Assembly (NCBI RefSeq): GCF_020179605.1
Contig: NZ_JAINZO010000002.1
Span: 434,001 to 498,000, forward strand
Direction: 5' to 3'
DNA from: Geomonas agri
GTDB lineage: Bacteria > Desulfobacterota > Desulfuromonadia > Geobacterales > Geobacteraceae
Length of the DNA: 64,000 nt
Shown in pieces: positions 49,785-60,738 of this stretch (positions are counted from its first letter, which is position 1; each line of letters starts with the position of its first letter). A program made the position numbers and the translations under genes. The notes beneath the pieces were generated by a model. That model worked only from the letters and a program-made list of their open reading frames with translations. It was not told the origin of the DNA and did no database searches.

Positions 49785-50197
49785 TCACTGTTGCGCGTCC
49801 ATCCCATACATCACGCAGTTGCTGCCAAAGTAGGCCAAGATGGGTTCCGTCCGCAACCACGGTAGGATCTCTTTGCAAGCATAAGCACGATGGCTGCTCC
49901 ACGGATAGGAGGTGGGGTCCTTTACGAGATTGGCTCGTATTGGATTAAGGTGAATGTACGACGTCAAAGGAAGTATTCGTCAGCGTCGACGAGGATCGTC
50001 CTGTACCGTCCTTGGAAGAGGTGCCCGACTCTGCTTATTTGCGAGTTTATCCAGCGGGTGTACCTAAAGGCGAGGTTCTGGATGATCCTTGATAGGTACC
50101 GGCCCACCTCATCGTAGAAAATGTCCTGCCGGTCATTGCCGCGCAGGATGACTTGATAGTGAGCACCTGGAAAATGTATCCTCTGTCGGCGAGCCAT
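49785..50197 (-). pseudogene. decayed REP-associated transposase (remnant 3)
   Basis: MARRQRIHFPGAHYQVILRG begins a RAYT gene, but after DEVGRY the sequence jumps to LSRIIQNLAFRYTRWIN. An internal deletion has removed the catalytic HxH segment. After DADEYFL the frame changes to SYIHLNPIRANLVKDPTSYP and WSSHRAY. Upstream lies the usual CTTGCAAAGTTGCAAAGTTG-type flank near 50215-50240. A different subfamily from remnants 1 and 2. 49561-49784 holds no other supportable gene. Confidence 0.8.
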
Positions 50198-50298
50198 TAG
50201 ACAAAGCTAGTTCAACTTTGCAACTTTGCAAGCCTGACCCCAGATCCCCTTAATGAACTGCAAAAGTAACCTACGTCCCACTGATTCCTGTAATGGCA

Positions 50299-51630
50299 CT
50301 AAAGAAACGTCAATGAAAACGGTAGATCCGTGATAAAAGACAAAAATCCTTGTAGTTCCATATCATTATTGAACTTCTGCCCCCTCAACACATCTACATT
50401 AGTATATACAAGGGAATTCACAGCATCATAGCCCTGTATTTCTTTTACTGTAACGACTTCGGAATTCCTTACAGCAAAAATATTGAGATGACAGACTCCT
50501 GCTGCTCTGAGTTCGTTATGGAACACCTTATACTTGTTTTGTTCAGTACGGGATTCAACGAAATTAAAGTGTAAAGCAGCGTCTCTCCACGCAGTCTCTA
50601 ATGCTTGGCTTTCAATAGGATACAAATGTTGTTTAAGCTGTAATCTATCCCATCGAGATTGATATTCGTTGGTGTAGTGAGACATCTGGAGGAACAGATG
50701 ATCAGCCGCTACTTTCCCAGCCTCCTCTATACTTGATTCATCAATCTTCGAACCCAGGTATTCGTTAGCCGCCCGCATGAAGTCAGCAGAATTGTACATC
50801 TGAAACAAAGTCACTGATGTTTGTCGATATACCTCATCTACGAGTTCGGGCCTTGGCCCTATTATTTTTTCACCTTGAGCATCAACCTTTTGCCACCAAT
50901 CCTCTTTTGCATCATCGGTTACAAAAATAAGCCTGTTCCATTCTTTTTCTTTCGCTTCCACCAGTAACTGTTTCCAGAGAAGCAAATCGCCAAACTTCCT
51001 CTCAAATCGCAGGCCGGCGTAAAAATACTCTGCCCCATCCGAATCCGCGTCCTTTGATCGGTCCATAAACCCTGGGGGAATTTTGTTGTTATAACGGTGC
51101 TCACCGTCTTTGTATAATTCATCTAAATAGGACTGATCTGGAACCCGCCCAACCCTGCCTTCAAAGATTTCATCGAGTACATCCCTAATATCATCAGAAG
51201 ATCGGACTCCTGGTTGTTCTTGCTCATGTTTTTGAAGCTCAATTCGTAGCTTTTCACCTATTGTTTCTAACGTCTTTATGTGCTTTTCCAGCTTTATAGT
51301 TGGGTGACGCTTTGTGATCTCTATATCAGATAATTTTTTCGATAATCCATTAAAACATGAGTCAATTGCATTATACGCTCGGAAAAAGATACCTTTCCTA
51401 TCCGCAAGAAGTCTAAGTCTGTTCCTTTGGAATTCCAACGCTACCTGATGAGGGATCCATGTTCGTTCAGCAATGGACCTCAAAAGGTGCAGAAAGTCAT
51501 TTTTAGCTGATTTGTCGTAGTTGTACAGATTCAACAAAACGTTCGCATCAAAAACAAAACGACAGTCCTTCCAGATGTCATTAAGTTCATTCTTGGAAGG
51601 CTGATAATATCCCGGGACCGCGTTTCTCAC
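50299..51630 (-). CDS. PIN-like (PIN_8-type) domain nuclease, probable defence protein
   Basis: A 443-residue protein with GTG start at 51630 (AGAGGTAATC upstream). Residues ~20-250 are a large PIN-like domain: CRFVFDANVLLNLYNYDKSA with the first catalytic Asp at 28, TWIPHQVALEFQRNRLRLLA with a Glu at ~66, a long helical insertion, and LIFVTDDAKEDWWQK with acidic residues at ~237. These acids form the metal-dependent RNase/DNase site in PIN proteins. The C-terminal ~150 residues are of unknown type. PIN_8 proteins are common in defence islands. The gene is clearly AT-richer than the core genes and lies 115 bp downstream of the DUF262-AlbA gene on the same strand. Confidence 0.82.
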   Translation of the reverse strand: MRNAVPGYYQPSKNELNDIWKDCRFVFDANVLLNLYNYDKSAKNDFLHLLRSIAERTWIPHQVALEFQRNRLRLLADRKGIFFRAYNAIDSCFNGLSKKLSDIEITKRHPTIKLEKHIKTLETIGEKLRIELQKHEQEQPGVRSSDDIRDVLDEIFEGRVGRVPDQSYLDELYKDGEHRYNNKIPPGFMDRSKDADSDGAEYFYAGLRFERKFGDLLLWKQLLVEAKEKEWNRLIFVTDDAKEDWWQKVDAQGEKIIGPRPELVDEVYRQTSVTLFQMYNSADFMRAANEYLGSKIDESSIEEAGKVAADHLFLQMSHYTNEYQSRWDRLQLKQHLYPIESQALETAWRDAALHFNFVESRTEQNKYKVFHNELRAAGVCHLNIFAVRNSEVVTVKEIQGYDAVNSLVYTNVDVLRGQKFNNDMELQGFLSFITDLPFSLTFL

Positions 51631-51745
51631 GATTACCTCTACGCTAAAATTGAACTCGCCGCTTATCTTAAATTGTCACATGGTGGGAACCACTCCCTCC
51701 ATAGAACAGCTGCATTGATGCCACTACCAGAGCCCGCCGCCTTTC

Positions 51746-53995
51746 TTAAACAAATCTTTGTTTAATGAATTCTTGGGTCTGACTTGCACTGAGCTCTGCT
51801 GTCGACGCTCCGCCACGAACGAAAAACCTTTCAATTGACCCGTCTTTCACAAATACTGGTGCCTTTCCCTTTTTACACTCCACTATCAGCACTTTCTTGT
51901 CCTCGTAGTCATCGAAACGGGACTGGATATTGAGGGAATGTTGGGGTCCAATGCGATCTTTGACCAAGTTGTCAAGATGCAGGAGCATCTTGTCATCATT
52001 TTCGAACTTGTCCGCTTCCACGCCGACAGGACTTCCATCGTCCAGCACACCCACTACAAGGTTCCCGCCATGTGAATTTAGGAATGCTGCAATGGTTTTT
52101 AAAATACCCATTTCCATCCGTTGATCTTTTTCGCCTGTGTGTAGATTTGTCCGCAAAGTACCCTTAAACTCTATAGACGTCCCTTCACCTTGCGCTACCA
52201 GATTTGCGATGGATATAGTATCCGAGGTTGTAATCACGTCTCCCTTGTCCAACAACTTATATGCATCTGATATCACCTTGGCTATCATCTCCCTCCGTTG
52301 CTTCAAGAAATCCCAATACTCCATTAACTCCCATCCGTCTGGCAAAGCATGCCAGTATCGCATCTGTTCCATTTCGAGTAAGGAATAGCGCTTGCTCAAC
52401 TCCGGAACGTATTCTTTCGGCGGCTTGTCGGAAATCTTAGCGTTGTCGCCCCACTCAATCATGGAAAAGTTTGCTACCTGATTGGTATCTCGACTATCGA
52501 TGATTCCTTGTTCCTTGAGATAAGCCTTGGGGAAAAGATGGTGTCTCTCTAATGATGCACGATGGGCATGGGTGTAAGGATCCAACAAATCAGAAACTTT
52601 GTGATGTGAGAAAAGCACTTTCGCATCGAGAAGGTTCAGTGCCGCGAAATATGCGAAGAGTGAGGGGCTTCGTGCAGCGGCTGTAGCAAGTTCGTTAGGG
52701 AGGGTAATGGACCAGAAATCACTAGTAAGAAACGATTCGCAAACTTGCCGAAGTGTGTCTACAAACTCCTCCGCCGTCTTTACCGTGCGCAAGCGAGCAA
52801 GGTCGAATTCCATCTTAGATTCGGGTGAACTAGTGTAGCGTCCAGTCAGATTGACCATATAATACCACTGTGCGATAACCCTCCTCAGGATATGTTCATC
52901 AACGCTAAATTCCGTTTTACCTATCAAGTAGAAAACATAGCTATACAATAGATTGTTCTCAGAACTGATCATGGTTTCGCTGCGATAACCCGCCTGCAGT
53001 AGTGCTTTTAGGAAGTCGTGCCAGTTCTGCAGATTAAGTACACGGGCTTGGGCCTGCTTTAGGACCTCGAACTGAGCGTCACGGCGTTGGGGGCTAAATT
53101 CCTCAGTAGTGAGGTCTTTTCCTCGCAGAATAGAATAAACGTACTGAAGGCGAGCACGACGGAACGCCACTCCGACAGCAACACGAAGCAATTGGTCCGG
53201 TTTTGGTCGTATAAAGTGGTTGAAGGGTGAGGGCTTGCCGACAGTCGGCACTTTTGCCGCACGACAAAAACTTTCCAGTTCTTTACGCCCCTCTTCCCAA
53301 AAAACCGACATTAGGGTAAGTATAAAATCTGCCTGGTTCAGAGTCTTTCCTTCGCTGTTAATGCGAACAAACACTTCTGAAACTTGTTCTTCGTCAACAG
53401 TGGCGGCTAACTGCAGTGCGGTGAAAGGAAAACTGAGTAGCTGTTGCAGTCTGGTAATCGCCTTACGTACTTTCCTTGTGTCGTCTACAGAGACATCTCG
53501 AGACGTTGCTAAATTGGTAAGGTAGTTGTCGGTGATTTCAAAAATATCAGCGTCCTTGGACCAGACCACCGAGATATTAGGAATATAAGTCTTGTCTTTG
53601 CGTATTGCAGCATCAGCAACTTCGAACTTCCCGTCTAAGGGATTAAAAGCTATTTCAATCTGCTCAGCAGCATAGCTTTCTCGAATGACGGGAATTCCTT
53701 TAACCACAGCAAACAAAGATGTTAGTCGTTGTTGACCATCCACTAACAAAAGATTCGGCACCAACTGTTTCTTGTCAGTACCGATAGTCTTCACTCCTTC
53801 AATAAGGGCGTTTTCCCAGAATAGCAAGTATCCGACAGGAAACCCACGGTACATCGAATCGAAAAGGTTGCGGACTTTGGAATTTTTCCAGACGAAGGGC
53901 CGCTGGAGGTCGGGGAGGCCGATTTGCCCAAGTTCGACAAACTTCACCAAAGAATTCAGGTCGTAGTTTACTTGTTTAAAAATAGTTTCACTCAT
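51746..53995 (-). CDS. DUF262-HNH (GmrSD-like) protein fused to a Schlafen AlbA_2 domain
   Basis: A 749-residue protein. Residues ~10-250 are DUF262 (GmrS type): LPDLQRPFVWKNSKVRNLFD (27-46), GFPVGYLLFW, the invariant DGQQRLTSL at 86-94, and VFVRINSEGKTLNQADFILT. A helical middle leads to an HNH-like segment LERHHLFPKAYLKEQG with His pair 485-486 and NQVANFSMIEW, as in GmrD/DUF1524. Residues ~603-740 form an AlbA_2 divergent domain: GEGTSIEFKGTLR, ILKTIAAFLNSHGGNLVVGV, VLIVECKKGKAPVF. GmrSD and BrxU cleave modified phage DNA using nucleotides; AlbA_2/Schlafen parts bind or cut nucleic acid. The fusion suggests a single-protein restriction effector. AT-rich composition and neighbours support recent transfer. 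Confidence 0.85.
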   Translation of the reverse strand: MSETIFKQVNYDLNSLVKFVELGQIGLPDLQRPFVWKNSKVRNLFDSMYRGFPVGYLLFWENALIEGVKTIGTDKKQLVPNLLLVDGQQRLTSLFAVVKGIPVIRESYAAEQIEIAFNPLDGKFEVADAAIRKDKTYIPNISVVWSKDADIFEITDNYLTNLATSRDVSVDDTRKVRKAITRLQQLLSFPFTALQLAATVDEEQVSEVFVRINSEGKTLNQADFILTLMSVFWEEGRKELESFCRAAKVPTVGKPSPFNHFIRPKPDQLLRVAVGVAFRRARLQYVYSILRGKDLTTEEFSPQRRDAQFEVLKQAQARVLNLQNWHDFLKALLQAGYRSETMISSENNLLYSYVFYLIGKTEFSVDEHILRRVIAQWYYMVNLTGRYTSSPESKMEFDLARLRTVKTAEEFVDTLRQVCESFLTSDFWSITLPNELATAAARSPSLFAYFAALNLLDAKVLFSHHKVSDLLDPYTHAHRASLERHHLFPKAYLKEQGIIDSRDTNQVANFSMIEWGDNAKISDKPPKEYVPELSKRYSLLEMEQMRYWHALPDGWELMEYWDFLKQRREMIAKVISDAYKLLDKGDVITTSDTISIANLVAQGEGTSIEFKGTLRTNLHTGEKDQRMEMGILKTIAAFLNSHGGNLVVGVLDDGSPVGVEADKFENDDKMLLHLDNLVKDRIGPQHSLNIQSRFDDYEDKKVLIVECKKGKAPVFVKDGSIERFFVRGGASTAELSASQTQEFIKQRFV

Positions 53996-54154
53996 TAGTA
54001 GAGTTTTCTCCTAGACGAATAGCAAAGGTAAACAATTTGATTCAACACACATCCCCCCCACGTGTTGGAAAGGCGTATGCCCCTACATTCATGGGATGTA
54101 AAAGCTGACAAGACCCTCGCGCCTGTTCAATTTGCTTTTGACATAACGAGCCTG

Positions 54155-54501
54155 CTATTCAAGCGCCTTTACGTCAACAATGAAATATCCAGATTCTCCA
54201 AACAAGGTGGTCGGGGTGCCCTTGTGCTGTTCGTAGGACATGGTCACCTTTTTGCCCACGGCTGCATTTATTTTTGCAACCACTGCCTTGTCTCGAACTG
54301 AGAATGGGAACCGTTCTGGAATCGCTTCGGGTACGGGGAGCATTTGCAAATTCGCCCTCCCAAGGCCTTGCTTACCCACCCTTTTTCTGAGAACTTCTGA
54401 ACATTGCCAACCCTGTCGCCTTTTGAGAAGCTCCAGTTGGGCACGACGTACATGTAAACGGCGGCAAAGACGGCTTTGCTTTTGATTCCAGAAGGGGTCA
54501 T
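54155..54501 (-). pseudogene. frameshifted small membrane-anchored protein gene
   Basis: Starts at ATG 54501 behind a strong GCAGGAGGAAAGA site, 12 bp after the Mrr-type gene. The N-terminal frame gives MYVVPNWSFSKGDRVGNVQK then FSEKGWVSKA. The C-terminal frame gives PVPEAIPERFPFSVRDKAVV and YEQHKGTPTTLFGESGYFIV. Removing one T from CCTTGGG and one T from AATTTGC (both near 54345-54360) restores KAWEGELQMLPVPEAIPERF, the conserved WEGEL centre of a small family often mislabelled 6-phosphogluconate dehydrogenase. Two single-base insertions, in the same short stretch, explain the whole break. They could be real or sequencing errors. Confidence 0.75.
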
Positions 54502-54513
54502 TCTTTCCTCCTG

Positions 54514-55533
54514 CTACGTTGCTGGCCATGCCTTCTTACAAGGGAGGCACCCGTAAAAGCTCTGGCCCTCTTTCGGCCCACTCTGGAACTTCCTCAGGAC
54601 AAGTTCGCTGCCACAATCCGGGCAATTTCTTTTCGGTTCTTCTTTCGGCTGCACCACCGCTGTATCCGGTGATGTTGGTATCGGACCCGCATCCGCGAAG
54701 ATCTGGGTTCCGTTACATTTCGGGTAGTTGCTGCAGCCCCAGAACTTCTGTCCGGCATTGCCGCCTTTACGGGCTACTCGGATTTGCATCGCTGCTCCGC
54801 ACTTCGGGCATTGCGGTGCGACTGAGGGAGCAACATTAGATGGGGACGGCACTGGTGCTACGGTGGCCACTGTTCCAATCACGGACTTCAGCTTCTGGCC
54901 GTCGATCAGTTCGAGGTTGAGCCCCCGCACAAAGGCCTTGGCGTCCTCTGTAAAGGTGCCGGAAGTCACGAAGTAACCGCCTGCGGCTCCTGCGGCGGCC
55001 ATTACTCCGTAAAATTCTCGCACGGGCTGGACGCTGACCTTGTACGCCTTCCACTGCTTGCACTGCACCAGGTGCTTTTCTCTTCCCTTACGGAGGACGA
55101 GATCTATCCCGCCATCCGGCCCGCTACCACCCTCTCGTGCGACCTCAAATCCCTTCCGCTTGAAATGCTCGGCCACGAGAGTCTCGAACTCGCCCCAGCT
55201 CATTTCGTTGAGCGCGCTGACGCCCGCACGCGACTTGACGGTCTCGTAGAGCTTGCGCTGTTTTAATGACTGGAAAAGCGAGATGACACCGCCCAGCAGG
55301 ATCGCGATAGGCACAACAAACTGAAGAAAGGTTGCCACGGCCCTAACGAGAGCTCTGCCCACGGCATCACCCAACTGTCCAGGTGTTACTGTGGGTGGCG
55401 TTGCTGGGCGGGAGGCCATGGAGTGGAGAACGAGGTAAAACACGAGGGCTAAAATGGCTGAGGCCCACCACGGGAATTTGCTGGCGATTGTAATCAGATC
55501 TTCGAAAGTGCTGGGACGCTGTTTTCGTGCCAT
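54514..55533 (-). CDS. membrane-anchored Mrr-type restriction endonuclease with zinc ribbons
   Basis: A 339-residue protein. Two N-terminal membrane helices (~20-38 WWASAILALVFYLVLHS and ~68-88 FLQFVVPIAILLGGVISLFQ). Then an Mrr_cat-like nuclease: MSWGEFETLVAEHFKRKGFE (~111-130), GGSGPDGGIDLVLRKG with catalytic Asp, and HLVQCKQWKAYKVSVQPVRE with the QxK motif (~155). Two C-terminal zinc ribbons follow: CPKCGAAM...GCSNYPKC (topoisomerase type) and CPDCGSEL...GCLPCKKAW. It should cut DNA entering near the inner membrane; the zinc ribbons may bind DNA. Translation start has only a weak site. The palindrome array lies 220-500 bp upstream. Confidence 0.87.
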   Translation of the reverse strand: MARKQRPSTFEDLITIASKFPWWASAILALVFYLVLHSMASRPATPPTVTPGQLGDAVGRALVRAVATFLQFVVPIAILLGGVISLFQSLKQRKLYETVKSRAGVSALNEMSWGEFETLVAEHFKRKGFEVAREGGSGPDGGIDLVLRKGREKHLVQCKQWKAYKVSVQPVREFYGVMAAAGAAGGYFVTSGTFTEDAKAFVRGLNLELIDGQKLKSVIGTVATVAPVPSPSNVAPSVAPQCPKCGAAMQIRVARKGGNAGQKFWGCSNYPKCNGTQIFADAGPIPTSPDTAVVQPKEEPKRNCPDCGSELVLRKFQSGPKEGQSFYGCLPCKKAWPAT

Positions 55534-55636
55534 GGGACTTTACGGAACTCCTCGGGGAGATATCGTAAACATGAATAACACATAGAGAACTTCTAAGAAA
55601 GTAAATTCATCAAAGAAACCCCACAAACCAACTTCT

Positions 55637-55712
55637 TTAGCTCACGCAAAGGCGCGAAGACGCTCAGGGCAAAGACGATTAACAGGGATAAAGGGGATGG
55701 AGGGGATAACTT
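55637..55712. repeat. intergenic repeat of the CACGCAAAGGCGC type
   Basis: Contains CTCACGCAAAGGCGCGAAGA followed by TTAACAGGGATAAAGGGGAT, two boilerplate strings I know from intergenic regions of many bacterial genomes. Position between the Mrr-type gene and the palindrome array. Confidence 0.45.
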
Positions 55713-55758
55713 GAGACGGACTTATGATCTTGAGTACGGGTGACGGCATCGCCATCTT

Positions 55759-56038
55759 GAAATAGCACTGTTTGTCCCGGAACAGCACTATTTCCTACAC
55801 AATAAGCCAATTCCTATCTGAAATAGTGCTATTCCAGACGGAATAGCACTATTTTCTAGAAAACAACACTATTCCCTCCGGAATAGTGATATTTTGGCGG
55901 CAAATATCACTATTTCACCAAGAATAGTACTATTCCTGCTGAAACAGGTACTATCTTTACCAAAACAGCACTATTTGGTTCAGGATCTTACTATTTCTGG
56001 CGAAAGAAGCTATGTCGCTGGCAGAATAGCACTATTTT
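55759..56038. repeat. array of ~14 palindromes with ~20.3-bp period
   Basis: Fourteen copies, some degenerate, of the self-complementary 12-mer AATAGCACTATT or its reverse complement AATAGTGCTATT. Cores start at 55761, 55781, 55801, 55822, 55842, 55862, 55882, 55903, 55923, 55943, 55964, 55984, ~56003 and 56025, a period of 264/13 = 20.3 bp. The 8-bp linkers are often flanked by TTCC and GGAA, so neighbouring units can also pair (for example CTATTCC-agac-GGAATAG at 55829-55846). Best copies: units 4, 5, 9 and 14; weakest: 3, 10, 12 and 13. No open frame fits the period. The 680-bp gap 55534-56213 contains this array and the repeat at 55637-55712 and no gene. I do not know this element. Confidence 0.9.
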
Positions 56039-56213
56039 CTGAAAGATAAGGAGCGGCGGCCTGGGACTGGCCTTCTGGCGGCGGCCGCGGACCTTTCATG
56101 GGTTAAGGCTGTGGGAGCGAGCGGCTGAAGAGTGGAGTTGGGAAAAGGAAGGTGGGATTCCGGGAGGGGAAGACGCGAGGGCGGCTGCCGGCGAAGCAGC
56201 CGTCCTCATCTTT

Positions 56214-56864
56214 TCAGATGATGATCAATTCAACAGCGTCGGACCATGGGCCCACACCGGCTTCGTTAAGCAGTCGCGCCCTGAAATAAGCTCTCCGCGC
56301 AGGTTCCAGCCCTTCGTGGGCGATATGGCAGTAATGTGCAATTTTGAGGAGTTGCCAGGACCCCTCCGAGCCGGGATCCCCGTAACAGATCTGGACCTCC
56401 ACGCTCCCCTTACCTTCCCACTTGTTGACGTAGATCTTGATTGCGCCAGATTTGTCTCCATGGCTGACTTTGACCTTGCTGAACTTCTCCGGGAGTTTCG
56501 CTGTTGTGTTCCGCACGGCCCTGTGCGCCCGTGGCACGCCGACGGTGTCGAGGTGGCTGGGGTCGTTTTCATGGGTGGCATACATCACCACATACTGGCA
56601 GGAGAACCTGATCGACTGGATCATTTTGTCCCGGGCTGCCTGCCGCTCCGGCTCCTTGGAAGGGTCCAGCCTTGCCGCGGTTGATGTCTGCTTCACCAGG
56701 GTTGCGTCCTGCCGGATTTGGGACGGACCGGGTATGCAGGGTGGGAGGGTTTGGAACTTGAAAGCGGGGTGCTCTTCCAGGTTCTCGGCGATGTTCTCCC
56801 CATGAAGCGCCAGATCACCGTCGCTGAGATCCTTCAAACTTGGGATGTCGAAGAGTTCGGGCAT
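56214..56864 (-). CDS. hypothetical protein with FN3-like C-terminus
   Basis: A 216-residue protein from ATG 56864 (CTGGAGGACTT upstream). Residues 1-80 are Asp/Glu/Pro-rich (MPELFDIPSLKDLSDGDLAL). Residues ~135-214 look like a fibronectin type III module: SGAIKIYVNKWEGKGSVEVQ, then SWQLLKIAHYCHIAHEGLEP, RRAYFRARLLNEAGVGPWSD and AVELII, the last being the typical AxNxxGxGPWS strand. No signal peptide. Proteins like this occur in Geobacter-type genomes, function unknown. GC content returns to the core level here. Confidence 0.75.
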   Translation of the reverse strand: MPELFDIPSLKDLSDGDLALHGENIAENLEEHPAFKFQTLPPCIPGPSQIRQDATLVKQTSTAARLDPSKEPERQAARDKMIQSIRFSCQYVVMYATHENDPSHLDTVGVPRAHRAVRNTTAKLPEKFSKVKVSHGDKSGAIKIYVNKWEGKGSVEVQICYGDPGSEGSWQLLKIAHYCHIAHEGLEPARRAYFRARLLNEAGVGPWSDAVELIII

Positions 56865-57141
56865 AAGTCCTCCAGGTGCTTGGGGTGGATACGATGGGGA
56901 CAAGTATTAGCCCGCTTTAAGGCGGTGTCAAGCGAGGGGTGGAGGGGTCTAAGGCGGAAGCTTTACCACAGAGGGACAGAGCGGCATTGAGGGCACAGGG
57001 TGTGAGCTAAAGTGCCCCCAGCCTCGCAAACCTGGTGTCGGTGGGGATTGAGCCACGTCACCAAATGCTGTATATTAGGTGTATCTGCCGAGGAGCATCT
57101 GCACACGATCCCGTAGAAACTTTAGATGTTGGAGGTTGATG
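56865..57141. other. intergenic region with boilerplate repeat
   Basis: Contains TACCACAGAGGGACAGAG and a second CACAGGG (56963-57005), again a common intergenic string. The promoter for the DUF4160 gene should lie near 57060-57110 (TGTATATTAGGTGTA). Confidence 0.35.
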
Positions 57142-57411
57142 ATGCCTACCATCTCCATGTTTTACGGAATCGTCATTTATATGTTCTTCTACGACAACAA
57201 GAAGCATTCCTTGCCGCACCTGCACGCAACGTTTGGTGAGCATGACGCTGTGTTTTCGATCGACGATGGGGAGTTGCTGGAAGGTGCGCTTCCCAAAACT
57301 AAGCAGAAGCTCGTTCAAGCGTGGATCGAAATACACAGGGAAGATCTGCTGACGGATTGGCGACTAGCAGTAAATGGTCAGAATCCGCTGCCGATCAAAC
57401 CTTTGGAGTAG
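57142..57411 (+). CDS. DUF4160 domain-containing protein
   Basis: An 89-residue protein from ATG 57142, six bases after GGAGG; an ATG three bases earlier is too close. MPTISMFYGIVIYMFFYDNK and HSLPHLHATFGEHDAVFSID are the DUF4160 signature (PHxH). These short proteins are usually encoded together with a DUF2442 protein, as here, two bases before the next start. The pair has been listed among toxin-antitoxin-like modules, but the activity is not established. Confidence 0.88.
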   Translation: MPTISMFYGIVIYMFFYDNKKHSLPHLHATFGEHDAVFSIDDGELLEGALPKTKQKLVQAWIEIHREDLLTDWRLAVNGQNPLPIKPLE

Positions 57412-57413
57412 CC

Positions 57414-57653
57414 ATGAACAAAGTCGTTTCCGTGAAACCCCTGGACGGTAAAAAGGTCGCCATCGTACTTTCTGATGGTCGCTCTGGCGTATTCGATGTC
57501 TCACCCTACATCAAATCGGAATTCTTCCAACGGTTGAATGACGATTCCTACTTTAGCCAAGTCTCCCTCTTCTTTACCGGCATCGGTTGGCCCGAAGGAC
57601 AGGATCTCGGACCGGATACTATTGCCGCAGAGCTGGAGGTAGCCCCGGAATAG
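57414..57653 (+). CDS. DUF2442 domain-containing protein
   Basis: A 79-residue protein beginning two bases after the DUF4160 stop (TTGGAG as ribosome site). Core: VKPLDGKKVAIVLSDGRSGV, FDVSPYIKSEFFQRLNDDSY and GIGWPEGQDLGPDTIAAEL, all characteristic of DUF2442. Likely the partner of the DUF4160 protein in one transcript. Confidence 0.88.
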   Translation: MNKVVSVKPLDGKKVAIVLSDGRSGVFDVSPYIKSEFFQRLNDDSYFSQVSLFFTGIGWPEGQDLGPDTIAAELEVAPE

Positions 57654-57668
57654 CTCCGTCCTTACCCG

Positions 57669-58202
57669 CTACCGGCCCTCTCGCTTCAAGATCAGAATTG
57701 TGTTGTCGTACCAACGCATGGCGGCTTTATCTTTTGAGAGTTTGGTGATCCAGTTGCAACCCTTTGGGCCAAACGGGTAATCAGGTCCAAAATGACCTTC
57801 CCTGCATTTTACCCAAAGTACATCCACTGCCTTTTTTGGATCCACTGGCAGATCGAACTTGTTGCTCTGATTACCTCCGTACTTTCCTTTCCCCATCGTT
57901 TGCTCGATCAGATTGTCAATTGTCACAGTCTTTCGAGTGGCCTGAGGGTTTCGGCAGGTGCCTTCCGGCATGGTGGTACTGATTCTCTCGCCGCTCACCA
58001 CTACTACGCGCCCTAGCAACTCTGGATCGTCTATGTCGTAAGCAGGTGTGCGCGGCAGAGTTTCATCGATTCGAACAGCAGTCACTTTCCACGTCCCGAA
58101 CAACCATTTTAGATCAGCTGGGCCAGCCCACGCCACGGGGGGAACAGAAACTATCAATACAAGTGCGAGGAAAGCACTGGCGTAAGCGGCAATTCTTCTC
58201 AT
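57669..58202 (-). CDS. exported protein, candidate immunity/inhibitor partner of the lysozyme-like protein
   Basis: A 177-residue protein with a signal peptide of ~26 residues (YASAFLALVLIVSVPPVAWA). The mature part starts GPADLKWLFGTWKVTAVRID, a lipocalin-like opening, and ends in SKDKAAMRWYDNTILILKRE. Its Cys residues (GTCRNP, VKCREG and KGCNWI) could form disulfides. ATG 58202 overlaps the stop of the upstream lysozyme-like gene by 4 bp (ATGA), with GGGAGG inside that gene. The tight coupling and periplasmic location fit an inhibitor of a peptidoglycan hydrolase. That role is inferred from context only. Confidence 0.7.
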   Translation of the reverse strand: MRRIAAYASAFLALVLIVSVPPVAWAGPADLKWLFGTWKVTAVRIDETLPRTPAYDIDDPELLGRVVVVSGERISTTMPEGTCRNPQATRKTVTIDNLIEQTMGKGKYGGNQSNKFDLPVDPKKAVDVLWVKCREGHFGPDYPFGPKGCNWITKLSKDKAAMRWYDNTILILKREGR

Positions 58203-59008
58203 AGCTCATACCTCCCGTGGCGGTAAAGGTTGGTCTCCCTCCTTCTCCGTACAGTCAGGGCCTTCATCACTTTCCCCCCTGAAGTATTTGCTGCATTCAT
58301 ACACGCCATCGCTGCTTCAATCTGGCCATTATTGATGAATGTGGTGACGCTGCGGAGACGGCCACCTGGGTTGTAAGCAAAGCTCACAAGAGAATCGAAC
58401 TCGTGCTGCACTAAGGGCACATGAACAAATTTCTTCACTAACATCTCGTAGCTCGGCAGAATGAGTCTTAAAAGCCTTAGGGCCTGTTCTTCTGACAAGT
58501 GAAATTTGTTCCCGTTATCATAAGCGAAGGAGTTGGCTGCAACACCTTCAAGCCCTGCCCCTTCTGATGCGAGCTCGCTGTCCCTCTTGCTGAGGCCACA
58601 ACTCAATAGGTCGTTATACACCTGCTGTTTGGTCCGGGTCTTCATGTCATATCCTGCGCCCAGGGTAACCCCACTCGCACCTCTTGGCCAATGTAACCGC
58701 TCCGATATTCCAGCTACATACTCCTCATTCCATATAAACCTGACACCACGCCCAGAGGTAACCAACAAACCAGGCGAATGAGCGCCAAGTCTTCCTTCTG
58801 GATTATTTCCGTTTCGTGGTTTCTGGCTTACCGATGCTGCGAATGCAGGGTCTCCACGGTCATTTCTACCTAAGGGACCAGGAGTGTTTTCAACCAATCC
58901 CTGTGGCGCGTTAGGTGCTGCAACGACATTTTGGCCGAGGGGGCCGGGGGTGAGGGAGGGGCGCTGGAAAGGGTCGCGACGGAGGTGGAGTTGACGAGAG
59001 TTGGCCAT
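58199..59008 (-). CDS. pesticin/phage-lysozyme-like peptidoglycan hydrolase, possible secreted effector
   Basis: A 269-residue protein; GCAGGAGGTTCC precedes ATG 59008. Residues 1-60 are disordered and hold a repeated TPGPLGQNV / TPGPLGRND motif at 20-28 and 42-50. Residues ~88-265 form the catalytic part: FIWNEEYVAGISERLHWPRG, ASGVTLGAGYDMKTRTKQQV (Thr 115 and Asp 121, the same six-residue spacing I recall for the catalytic Thr/Asp of pesticin; Glu 95/96 upstream), then KFHLSEEQALRLLRLILPSY, VQHEFDSLVSFAYNPGGRL and MKALTVRRRRETNLYRHG. No signal peptide, so export would need a dedicated secretion system or lysis. Coupled to the next gene. Confidence 0.82.
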   Translation of the reverse strand: MANSRQLHLRRDPFQRPSLTPGPLGQNVVAAPNAPQGLVENTPGPLGRNDRGDPAFAASVSQKPRNGNNPEGRLGAHSPGLLVTSGRGVRFIWNEEYVAGISERLHWPRGASGVTLGAGYDMKTRTKQQVYNDLLSCGLSKRDSELASEGAGLEGVAANSFAYDNGNKFHLSEEQALRLLRLILPSYEMLVKKFVHVPLVQHEFDSLVSFAYNPGGRLRSVTTFINNGQIEAAMACMNAANTSGGKVMKALTVRRRRETNLYRHGRYEL

Positions 59009-59113
59009 CTTGGAACCTCCTGCGGGAGGGGGCGTGAAGATGGAAATGTACCAAGGCGGGAGTGGGTGTCAAATGGGAGGGATGAGAATGGCGGGAAGGG
59101 GACTAAATGCAAA

Positions 59114-59141
59114 TCCCCCCTGTCCCCCCTTCGCAAAGGGG
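59114..59141. repeat. G/C-run intergenic repeat (copy 2, inverted)
   Basis: TCCCCCCTGTCCCCCCTTCG followed by CAAAGGGG; reverse complement of 22292-22320 with one base missing. Confidence 0.6.
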
Positions 59142-59230
59142 GGGACGCTTGGGCTTGCACATGCCTTCGTGGGGACTTTTATGCTGGGTGTTTTTTGAGA
59201 GGCTTTAAGAGATAACAACGATAAACGCAA

Positions 59231-59256
59231 CGAGGGCACCCGGTCGGGTGCCCTCG
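59231..59256. terminator. hairpin terminator at the end of the nuo operon
   Basis: CGAGGGCACCCG and CGGGTGCCCTCG are perfect 12-bp arms separated by two bases. The clearer T-run lies on the plus side, so it may act in both directions. The nuoN stop is at 59284. Confidence 0.75.
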
Positions 59257-59283
59257 CTTTTTGCTTTATCTATCCTGCTTGTC

Positions 59284-60738
59284 TTAGAACTGGACGGCTT
59301 TCTGTGCCAGCTCGAGGACGGTGCCGGGGACTACGCCGAGAACCAGGGTGGCACCTACGGCTACCAACAGGCACACTGCGATGGCCGGGGTGGCACCTGC
59401 CCACTCGAAGTCTTCGGTCGGGTCTTTCATGTACATGAAGACCATGACACGCAGGTAGTAGTACAGGGAGGCTGCGGAGTTCAGAACGCCGATGATGGCA
59501 AGCCACACGTAACCGGCCTTGATGGCTGCAGAGAAGAGGTAGAACTTCCCGATGAAGCCCGCGGTCGGCGGCATGCCGGCCAGGGAGAACAGGAAGATGC
59601 TCAGTACCATTGCCAGCAGCGGCTTCTTGTGACCGAAACCGGCCAGATCCTGCACGTTGCCGTTGACCTCGCCTTTCTTGGTGATCAGAACGATGACACC
59701 GAAGGCGCCGATGTTCATGAAGGCGTAGGAGAGCATGTAGAACAGGATGCCTGCTGCACCTTCGGCGTTCACTGCGGCGAAACCTACCAGCGCGTAACCG
59801 GCATGGGCGATGGAGGAGTAAGCCAGCATCCTCTTCACATTGTCCTGGGACAGCGCGATGATGTTACCGACGGTCATGGTCAGTACGGCCAGTACCCAGA
59901 GGAGATCGCTCCACTCGGCCCTCAGCATCGGGAAGGCAAAGATCATGACGCGGATGAAGGCTGCGAAACCGGCGGCCTTGGGGCCGGCGGACATGAACGC
60001 GGTCATCGGGGTCGGAGCGCCCTGGTAGACGTCCGGGGTCCACATGTGGAACGGTGCGGCGGCAATCTTGAAGCTGAAGCCGACGGCGATGAGCAGCATG
60101 CCCACGATGAAGAGCGGGTTGCTGGCTACGCCGGGGTTGCCTACGACATAGGCGGAAATGGCCTGGATCTTGGTGCTGCCGGTTGCGCCGTAGGTGAGCG
60201 CCATGCCGTAGAGCAGGAAGCCGGTGGAGAAGGCGCCCAGAAGGAAGTACTTGAGGCCCGCCTCGTTCGACGCCAGGTTGTCACGGTTCCAGCCTGCCAG
60301 GATGTACAGCGGGATGGAGAGAAGCTCGAGGCCCAGGAAGATGACCATCAGGTCGGTCCCGGATGCCATCAGCATCATGCCGACGGTGGCAAAGAGCACC
60401 ATCGGGTAGAGCTCGCCCTGGTTGCAATCCTCCTGGACCATGTAGCGGTCCGCGATCAGGATGGCAAGGCCGGCGGAGATGATGAAGATGACCTTGAAGA
60501 AGATTGCGTAGTTGTCCTGCACTACCGATCCGTTGAACGCTGATACCGACGGCCCCCAGCCGCCCACCGCGCTCGCCGCGGTCACTGCAAGGCCGATGAT
60601 GCTCAGGTAACCGAGGTAGGCCTTGTTCTTGCCCGGCACGAAGACGTTGACGAGCAGCAGCACCATGGCGATGCATGAGAGTAGGATCTCAGGCATGATC
60701 ACTGCCAGGTTTATGGCCGGCATAGCAATTGTTTCCAT
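59284..60738 (-). CDS. nuoN: NADH-quinone oxidoreductase subunit N
   Basis: A 484-residue membrane subunit with about 14 helices; ACGGAGGATTATAG precedes ATG 60738. Proton_antipo_M-type core: ELYPMVLFATVGMMLMASGT (with the conserved Glu of helix 5 near 130), FSFKIAAAPFHMWTPDVYQG with the conserved Lys (~218-237), and KRMLAYSSIAHAGYALVGFA (~303-322). It forms one of three antiporter-like proton channels in the membrane arm of Complex I. It follows nuoM by 31 bp and ends the operon before a terminator. Confidence 0.95.
   Translation of the reverse strand: METIAMPAINLAVIMPEILLSCIAMVLLLVNVFVPGKNKAYLGYLSIIGLAVTAASAVGGWGPSVSAFNGSVVQDNYAIFFKVIFIISAGLAILIADRYMVQEDCNQGELYPMVLFATVGMMLMASGTDLMVIFLGLELLSIPLYILAGWNRDNLASNEAGLKYFLLGAFSTGFLLYGMALTYGATGSTKIQAISAYVVGNPGVASNPLFIVGMLLIAVGFSFKIAAAPFHMWTPDVYQGAPTPMTAFMSAGPKAAGFAAFIRVMIFAFPMLRAEWSDLLWVLAVLTMTVGNIIALSQDNVKRMLAYSSIAHAGYALVGFAAVNAEGAAGILFYMLSYAFMNIGAFGVIVLITKKGEVNGNVQDLAGFGHKKPLLAMVLSIFLFSLAGMPPTAGFIGKFYLFSAAIKAGYVWLAIIGVLNSAASLYYYLRVMVFMYMKDPTEDFEWAGATPAIAVCLLVAVGATLVLGVVPGTVLELAQKAVQF

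Follow-up and report, generated by a model that had tools for sequence, protein, structure and literature searches.

Plasmid iterons are short repeats spaced about two helical turns apart beside a gene, and cooperative binding, which we propose here for a chromosomal array, would be a feature shared with iteron/Rep systems. In the parC/ParR and tubC/TubR systems the repeats are also phased, and side-by-side binding of the kind considered below would form a helical nucleoprotein filament. REP elements, with their REP-associated transposases, are palindromic intergenic repeats that occur as both gene-linked and dispersed copies, and CRISPR arrays consist of near-identical repeats of about 28 to 37 bp with unique spacers.

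Multicopy nucleotide sequences have been described in Geobacter bemidjiensis as intergenic families, some palindromic and some made of direct repeats of 6 to 42 nt (PMC2996986). The arrays reported here may be among those families, and the repeats themselves were possibly listed earlier in the supplements of that paper, although its accessible portions describe neither coupling to a fibronectin-III-like (FN3-like) gene nor a phase of 20 to 21 bp. Within the accessible portions of the literature searched, including PMC2996986, PMC2700814, PMC3543383, and PMC5217627, we found no description of this coupling between gene and array.

The phased array and its surroundings

We analyzed a 64,000-nucleotide stretch of a Geomonas agri contig (the window), in which the original prediction, made from the letters alone, had placed fourteen palindromes, phased at close to two helical turns, upstream of a restriction gene. 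The array occupies positions 55759 to 56038 (no strand assigned), and dynamic-programming segmentation divided these 280 bp into 14 units with a mean spacing of 20.31 bp, the individual spacings being 19 (one), 20 (eight), 21 (three), and 22 bp (one). The best Fourier period was 20.3 bp, and the power between 19.5 and 21.6 bp reached 9.90, whereas none of 500 dinucleotide shuffles exceeded 3.74 and 3.50 was the highest value in the rest of the window, so that the periodicity check proposed along with the prediction came out far above both backgrounds. We adopted this nucleotide Fourier score because Fourier analysis of palindrome strength alone failed to set the array apart.

The palindromes were less regular than the phase. 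The 12-mer AATAGYRCTATT was found with up to two mismatches in 10 of the 14 units, exactly in four of them, and seven centers had at least five of six complementary pairs (shuffles, mean of 1.53 and maximum of 6); the number fourteen holds for phased units but not for palindromes. Inside the array, AATAGTGCTATT (55822 to 55833) and AATAGTACTATT (55923 to 55934) are exact palindromes and AATAGCACTATT is an exact match at both 55842 to 55853 and 56025 to 56036, all without an assigned strand. With up to two mismatches, the 12-mer had 12 matches in the window, two of them outside the array, while shuffles of the whole window gave a mean of 1.69 and a maximum of 6. All four exact copies in the G. 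agri genome fall inside the array, and one mismatch gave 14 places versus 10 for the reversed control pattern. What is conserved is better captured by the half-site AATAGTG/CACTATT, in either orientation, repeated two helical turns apart. Complementarity is also present in the linkers. Being degenerate and about 20.3 bp long, the units do not correspond to CRISPR repeats, as had been anticipated, and in blastn comparisons with phages (2 records) and with plasmids (4 records) the array gave marginal matches only (E values of 0.09 to 1).

A Mrr-like nuclease with zinc ribbons is encoded on the minus strand at 54514 to 55533 and starts at 55533, so the array is literally upstream of a restriction gene. 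However, this gene adjoins the array in only 3 of the 13 AATAG-type loci compared (the window plus 12); we judged it an incidental neighbor and dropped it as a candidate partner after this count, and with it the suggested link to restriction and defense genes. The wider region holds a possible defense cluster at 50299 to 55533 (a PIN_8 protein, a protein with GmrSD_N and AlbA_2, and the Mrr-like nuclease) and, at 57079 to 57653, adjoining DUF4160 and DUF2442 genes that might form a toxin-antitoxin-like module.

Arrays coupled to an FN3-like gene family

The consistent neighbor of the arrays is an FN3-like gene, on the other side from the Mrr-like gene. In the window it lies on the minus strand at 56214 to 56864 and encodes a protein of about 217 amino acids, with the start placed by alignment of homologues, although the open reading frame could also begin further upstream, to 56903. 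The N terminus is predicted, at low confidence, to be helical, and the C terminus is FN3-like. Pfam, NCBIfam, and PADLOC gave no match for the window protein, and the Pfam fn3 model was weak and below the cutoff in some paralogues, but a profile of 15 family members matched PDB chains with FN3 domains, among them myomesin 5fm5 (E value of 1.8e-10), locating an FN3 domain at the C terminus of the family. In PHROGs, 6 of these 15 members, the window protein not among them, matched a phage minor tail protein family (best E value of 3.2e-7). No recognized DNA-binding fold was found in the partner protein, its isoelectric point is 6.5 (family median, 8.53), and single-sequence AlphaFold gave an unusable model (mean pLDDT of 36.8). 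The genomes of the genus have 5 to 12 homologue matches each at an E value of ≤1e-5, and the G. agri genome has seven family copies by profile; the same limit gave 14 matches in G024, which belongs to another genus, and one in G020. As judged from sequence, the Geobacterales family looks narrow, since profile A1 found homologues in only 1 of 395 sampled genomes of the phylum, that of G. agri, in a set of matches shown without other members of the genus.

To evaluate the coupling, we performed a motif-free Fourier scan over the 900 bp downstream of family genes, with the background maximum of 3.50, taken from our own window only, as the threshold. About 172 family matches were available, of which 66 were examined, mostly from the top of the list rather than at random and seven of them from G024 and G020; one was left out because it had too little downstream sequence. 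An array with a period of about 20.5 bp was found downstream of 56 of the 65 tested homologues, and signal above the threshold was much rarer upstream (4 of 58 regions) and within coding regions (2 of 59). Nine genes fell below the threshold: L229, L232, L254 (G017), L264 (G000), L270, L271, and L275 (G024), L274 (G003), and L073 (G010). Repeats can be made out by eye at L254 and L073, and L229, L270, and L275 have periodic DNA upstream of the family gene instead. Five of the seven G. agri copies carry an array on the 3′ side; at L291 the periodicity was weak and confined to the 5′ side, and L293 had nothing above 3.25. Among twelve loci of about 10 kb, periodic stretches away from the arrays turned up at L040 (power of 5.4, period of 22.8 bp) and L041 (power of 4.4, period of 19.9 bp). 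Array and FN3-like gene look like a repeated two-part module with several diverged copies per genome.

Two of the loci deserve separate mention. At L270 (G024), read in the direction of the family gene, positions 464 to 704 show a strong 21.0-bp periodicity about 700 to 950 bp upstream of that gene; this stretch could be coding. At L274 (G003 C1:1271900-1275200), an apparent insertion-element transposase gene is found about 220 bp past the family gene, where relatives have the array.

A GC-rich hairpin is a possible third component that recurs in the module. In the window it lies between the stop codon of the partner gene and the array (56177 to 56207, no strand; 12 pairs with G-T allowed, longest perfect stem of only 7) and is terminator-like on the plus strand, not on that of the partner gene. 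A perfect GC-rich stem of at least 8 was found within 130 nt of the stop in 37 of 65 family genes versus 6 of 57 upstream control windows, while 15 of the 65 have a hairpin with a trailing T-run, indicating that not all of these hairpins look like simple terminators. Hairpins after family stop codons often contain GCGGCTGCA...TGCAGCCGC.

The period over the 56 arrays, picked by position and power and searched between 18.5 and 22.6 bp, was 20.49 ± 0.42 bp (range, 18.68 to 21.22), the near-two-turn phasing that is typical of iterons. The phase profile was dyad symmetric in 36 of 56 arrays at a P value of <0.05 (28 at <0.01; 20 missed the first limit), against a null of shuffled phase bins that ignores the correlation of neighboring bins. 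Paralogue groups have unrelated cores, such as CGCTAATAGCG, AAAACTNNNAGTTTT, GAATGCATTC, or CGACCTCCTAGTTAGGGGACA, so geometry is preserved across their arrays and sequence is not. The original suggestion of selection on both phase and palindrome gains support from this period, symmetry, and largely unrelated sequence.

Relatives of the window array were sought by blastn in 97 genomes (its own and relatives) at a loose limit of E up to 1, where 64 genomes showed something, mostly at chance level; below an E value of 0.002, matches came from G. agri itself, G001, G003, G006, G007, G009, and G014, all of the same genus. Two phased half-site patterns matched 10 and 6 of the 19 genus genomes, with zero matches for reversed-pattern controls except for the first pattern in G000 (1) and G017 (2). 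First-pattern matches AATAGTGGAAATG... in G001, G010, and G012 (its only match) were isolated and not arrays. The AATAG-type arrays were located downstream of close homologues of the window FN3-like gene, upstream of an htpG-like gene (G001 and G010), and, in 9 of 18 genus genomes (the 19th, G017, not included), in the gap between hppA and glgA, which we take to be proton-pyrophosphatase and glycogen synthase genes by names recognized from sequence. A family-profile search of the hppA-gap loci examined found no family gene except that of G004. In the G004 gap (L063/L253, C1:198300-201700), a diverged family gene is accompanied by its own AATTGAGATTTC-type array with a period of 20.0, occupying the site that holds gene-less AATAG arrays in other genomes.

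Within the six genomes carrying both kinds of array, hppA-gap arrays resembled the gene-linked AATAG-type arrays of the same genome (mean cosine of 0.535 versus 0.379 when permuted; fraction of 0.0042 over all 720 permutations, with shared ancestry left in). There were exceptions, as the G000 hppA array was closer to arrays of other genomes (0.42 versus up to 0.68), the same-genome match was weak in G015 (0.32), and one of the two gene-linked arrays of G010 was unlike its hppA array (0.097). G002 and G009 keep gene-less AATAG arrays even though their closest homologues share just 38% and 41% identity with the window protein, which counts against a strict one-to-one rule. A DNA-only search of the 19 genus genomes with a second G. 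agri motif, found beside a paralogue, recovered five further arrays in three other genomes, three of them adjoining a family gene (G013, G002, and G005) and two with no family gene within about 1.5 kb (G002 and G005). A dispersed repeat independent of gene context, named as the refuting outcome of the prediction, is represented in part by the gene-less arrays but does not describe the whole family.

A related form was found in Bacteroidetes. An exact double-motif scan yielded 17 stretches in genome contigs and at least 120 in viral sequences; among the 17, several were isolated pairs or looked coding by eye, as at L088, where the motif reads Asn-Ser-Thr-Ile. Several of the Bacteroidetes stretches are arrays, and at L087 and L097 the product of the gene beside the array has a comparable length and an FN3-like end. 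Protein searches gave 11 Bacteroidetes loci, these two included, and, partly judged by eye, 7 of the 11 have an array 5′ of the gene (L282, L283, L285, L295, L296, L298, and L302, with L282 and L283 called by eye at low Fourier power); no array was visible in L284 and L297, and L299 and L300 were not clear-cut. Among the seven loci new from the class-wide search, four carry an array. Among 36 genomes of one order, two had the Bacteroidetes form, as did 8 of 395 genomes sampled across the class. Comparison of the Geobacterales and Bacteroidetes proteins by hhalign gave a probability of 94.8 (E value of 5e-8), and their probable homology rests on the FN3-like end; hmmsearch between the two forms used a two-sequence database, in which E values flatter. 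The 3′ flank of L299, a distant Bacteroidetes homologue, has repeats of roughly 21 bp containing ATACATCGCTCTCTGATGT (about 1935 to 2250).

What the arrays may do

We propose, with a probability of about one-half, that the array is a multisite docking platform on double-stranded DNA, iteron-like and cooperative, that works with the adjoining FN3-like protein. Each unit of about 20.5 bp (two helical turns) would expose half-sites related by a dyad on a single face of the helix, and protein copies, in the simplest case dimers of the cognate FN3-like protein but conceivably a partner protein, would bind side by side to form a filament or cluster over about 280 to 400 bp. Each diverged paralogue would have a core sequence to itself, and the arrays that lack a gene would be additional sites for the same factor at other places in the genome. 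The analysis establishes the arrays and their phase, the frequent dyad symmetry, the coupling to the gene family, the motifs particular to each paralogue, and the gene-less arrays of related motif; from these we infer binding and cooperativity, as well as a downstream role that might lie in organizing or tethering a chromosomal site or in self-regulation. The two-turn spacing and the frequent dyad symmetry, maintained despite sequence change, fit duplex DNA bound on one face, and a cooperative protein-binding array is the best supported of the readings first offered for this locus. The arrays are found 3′ of the gene in Geobacterales and 5′ in Bacteroidetes, as would be expected of a site on DNA more than of an element in a transcript, although this difference between phyla also counts against the docking reading. 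So do the failure to recognize a DNA-binding fold, the isoelectric point of the window protein, the gene-less arrays of G002 and G009, the uneven same-genome resemblance, the nine genes below the threshold, and the 20 arrays that missed the limit for dyad symmetry.

The original suggestion of structured RNA, taken here as a transcript of the array that folds into successive hairpins and either binds the FN3-like protein or serves as a regulatory RNA, is quite unlikely. Both strands of the window array fold as RNA far better than shuffles (z values of −7.56 and −9.07) and neighboring arms are able to pair, but palindrome arrays fold well anyway, the value as DNA being −7.72. The AATAG-type set (18 arrays, 282 units, mean spacing of 20.30) has units in both orientations; in it, core-dyad pairing was below the shuffled expectation (z of −5.1), and the linker self-complementarity that had been noted, although present and above shuffles (z of +4.3), was equalled by control pairing (z of +5.0), a surplus that alternating unit orientation can explain. 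G-T pairs across linkers were also fewer than expected (344 versus 378). Covariation thus gives no hairpin-specific support, and together with the two orientations this favors duplex half-sites. RNA, moreover, has no need of a fixed two-turn period across unrelated arrays, the GC-rich hairpin often found between gene and array might end transcription, and Rfam found no family at the gathering score in window positions 50000 to 60000 (two subthreshold matches). It is extremely unlikely that the array regulates the Mrr-like gene: its end lies about 225 bp upstream of the Mrr start, but many unrelated genes adjoin arrays, and Mrr was the neighbor in only 3 of the 13 AATAG-type loci compared.

Selfish or passive REP-like repeats, spread by slippage and unequal exchange with the gene as hitchhiker or helper, would account for the occurrence of several copies in each genome, some of them without the gene, for rapid change of sequence, and for a lineage-specific distribution, and at L042 (5511 to 6509, G007) a gene about 230 bp from the array resembles, we presume, REP-associated transposases. 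We consider this origin unlikely, as passive slippage leaves unexplained both a two-turn phase and frequent dyad symmetry shared by unrelated sequences and the side-specific coupling to one nontransposase family; several array loci also share flanking genes between species. Very improbable is a chromosomal site of a known centromere-like or iteron-like class (parC/ParR, tubC/TubR, or iteron/Rep), whose architecture of helically phased repeats beside one gene is alike. No Rep-like or cytomotive NTPase gene (such as ParM or TubZ) was detected by Pfam among ten neighboring window proteins or noticed by eye beside the arrays at other loci, the partner lacks any Pfam, NCBIfam, or PADLOC match, and there are several modules per chromosome with differing motifs.

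The docking reading can be extended to a new class of prokaryotic proteins that bind specific DNA sequences and are based on an FN3/Ig-type beta-sandwich, corresponding in bacteria to the p53/STAT-type folds. In this class each paralogue would have its own palindromic phased array, and protein and site would diverge together to give several mutually insulated nucleoprotein scaffolds on each chromosome in at least two phyla; we regard this extension as speculative and rather doubtful. If the coupling reflects binding, it would represent a new two-part system on the chromosome, whose many protein-site pairs, already diverged in nature, would lend themselves to the study of diverging sequence recognition, and would give an unannotated protein family its first testable role. 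The helical phase makes the key prediction simple, in that a half-turn insertion should abolish function.

Comparison with known systems

Compared to plasmid iterons, the arrays described here are chromosomal, with 5 to 12 family matches per genome, most of those tested with their own array; the units are often dyad symmetric, and the neighbors of the window array are the FN3-like gene and the Mrr-like nuclease rather than a rep gene (Pfam on ten window proteins). They differ from parC/ParR and tubC/TubR in having several modules per chromosome and no cytomotive NTPase noticed nearby. Unlike REP elements, they form long arrays of fixed two-turn spacing, and their recurring neighbor is the nontransposase FN3-like gene, the one possible REP-associated transposase being that seen by eye near L042. 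By analogy, the module would work most like plasmid iterons or centromere-like arrays, yet by the features that define these classes it stands apart from them.
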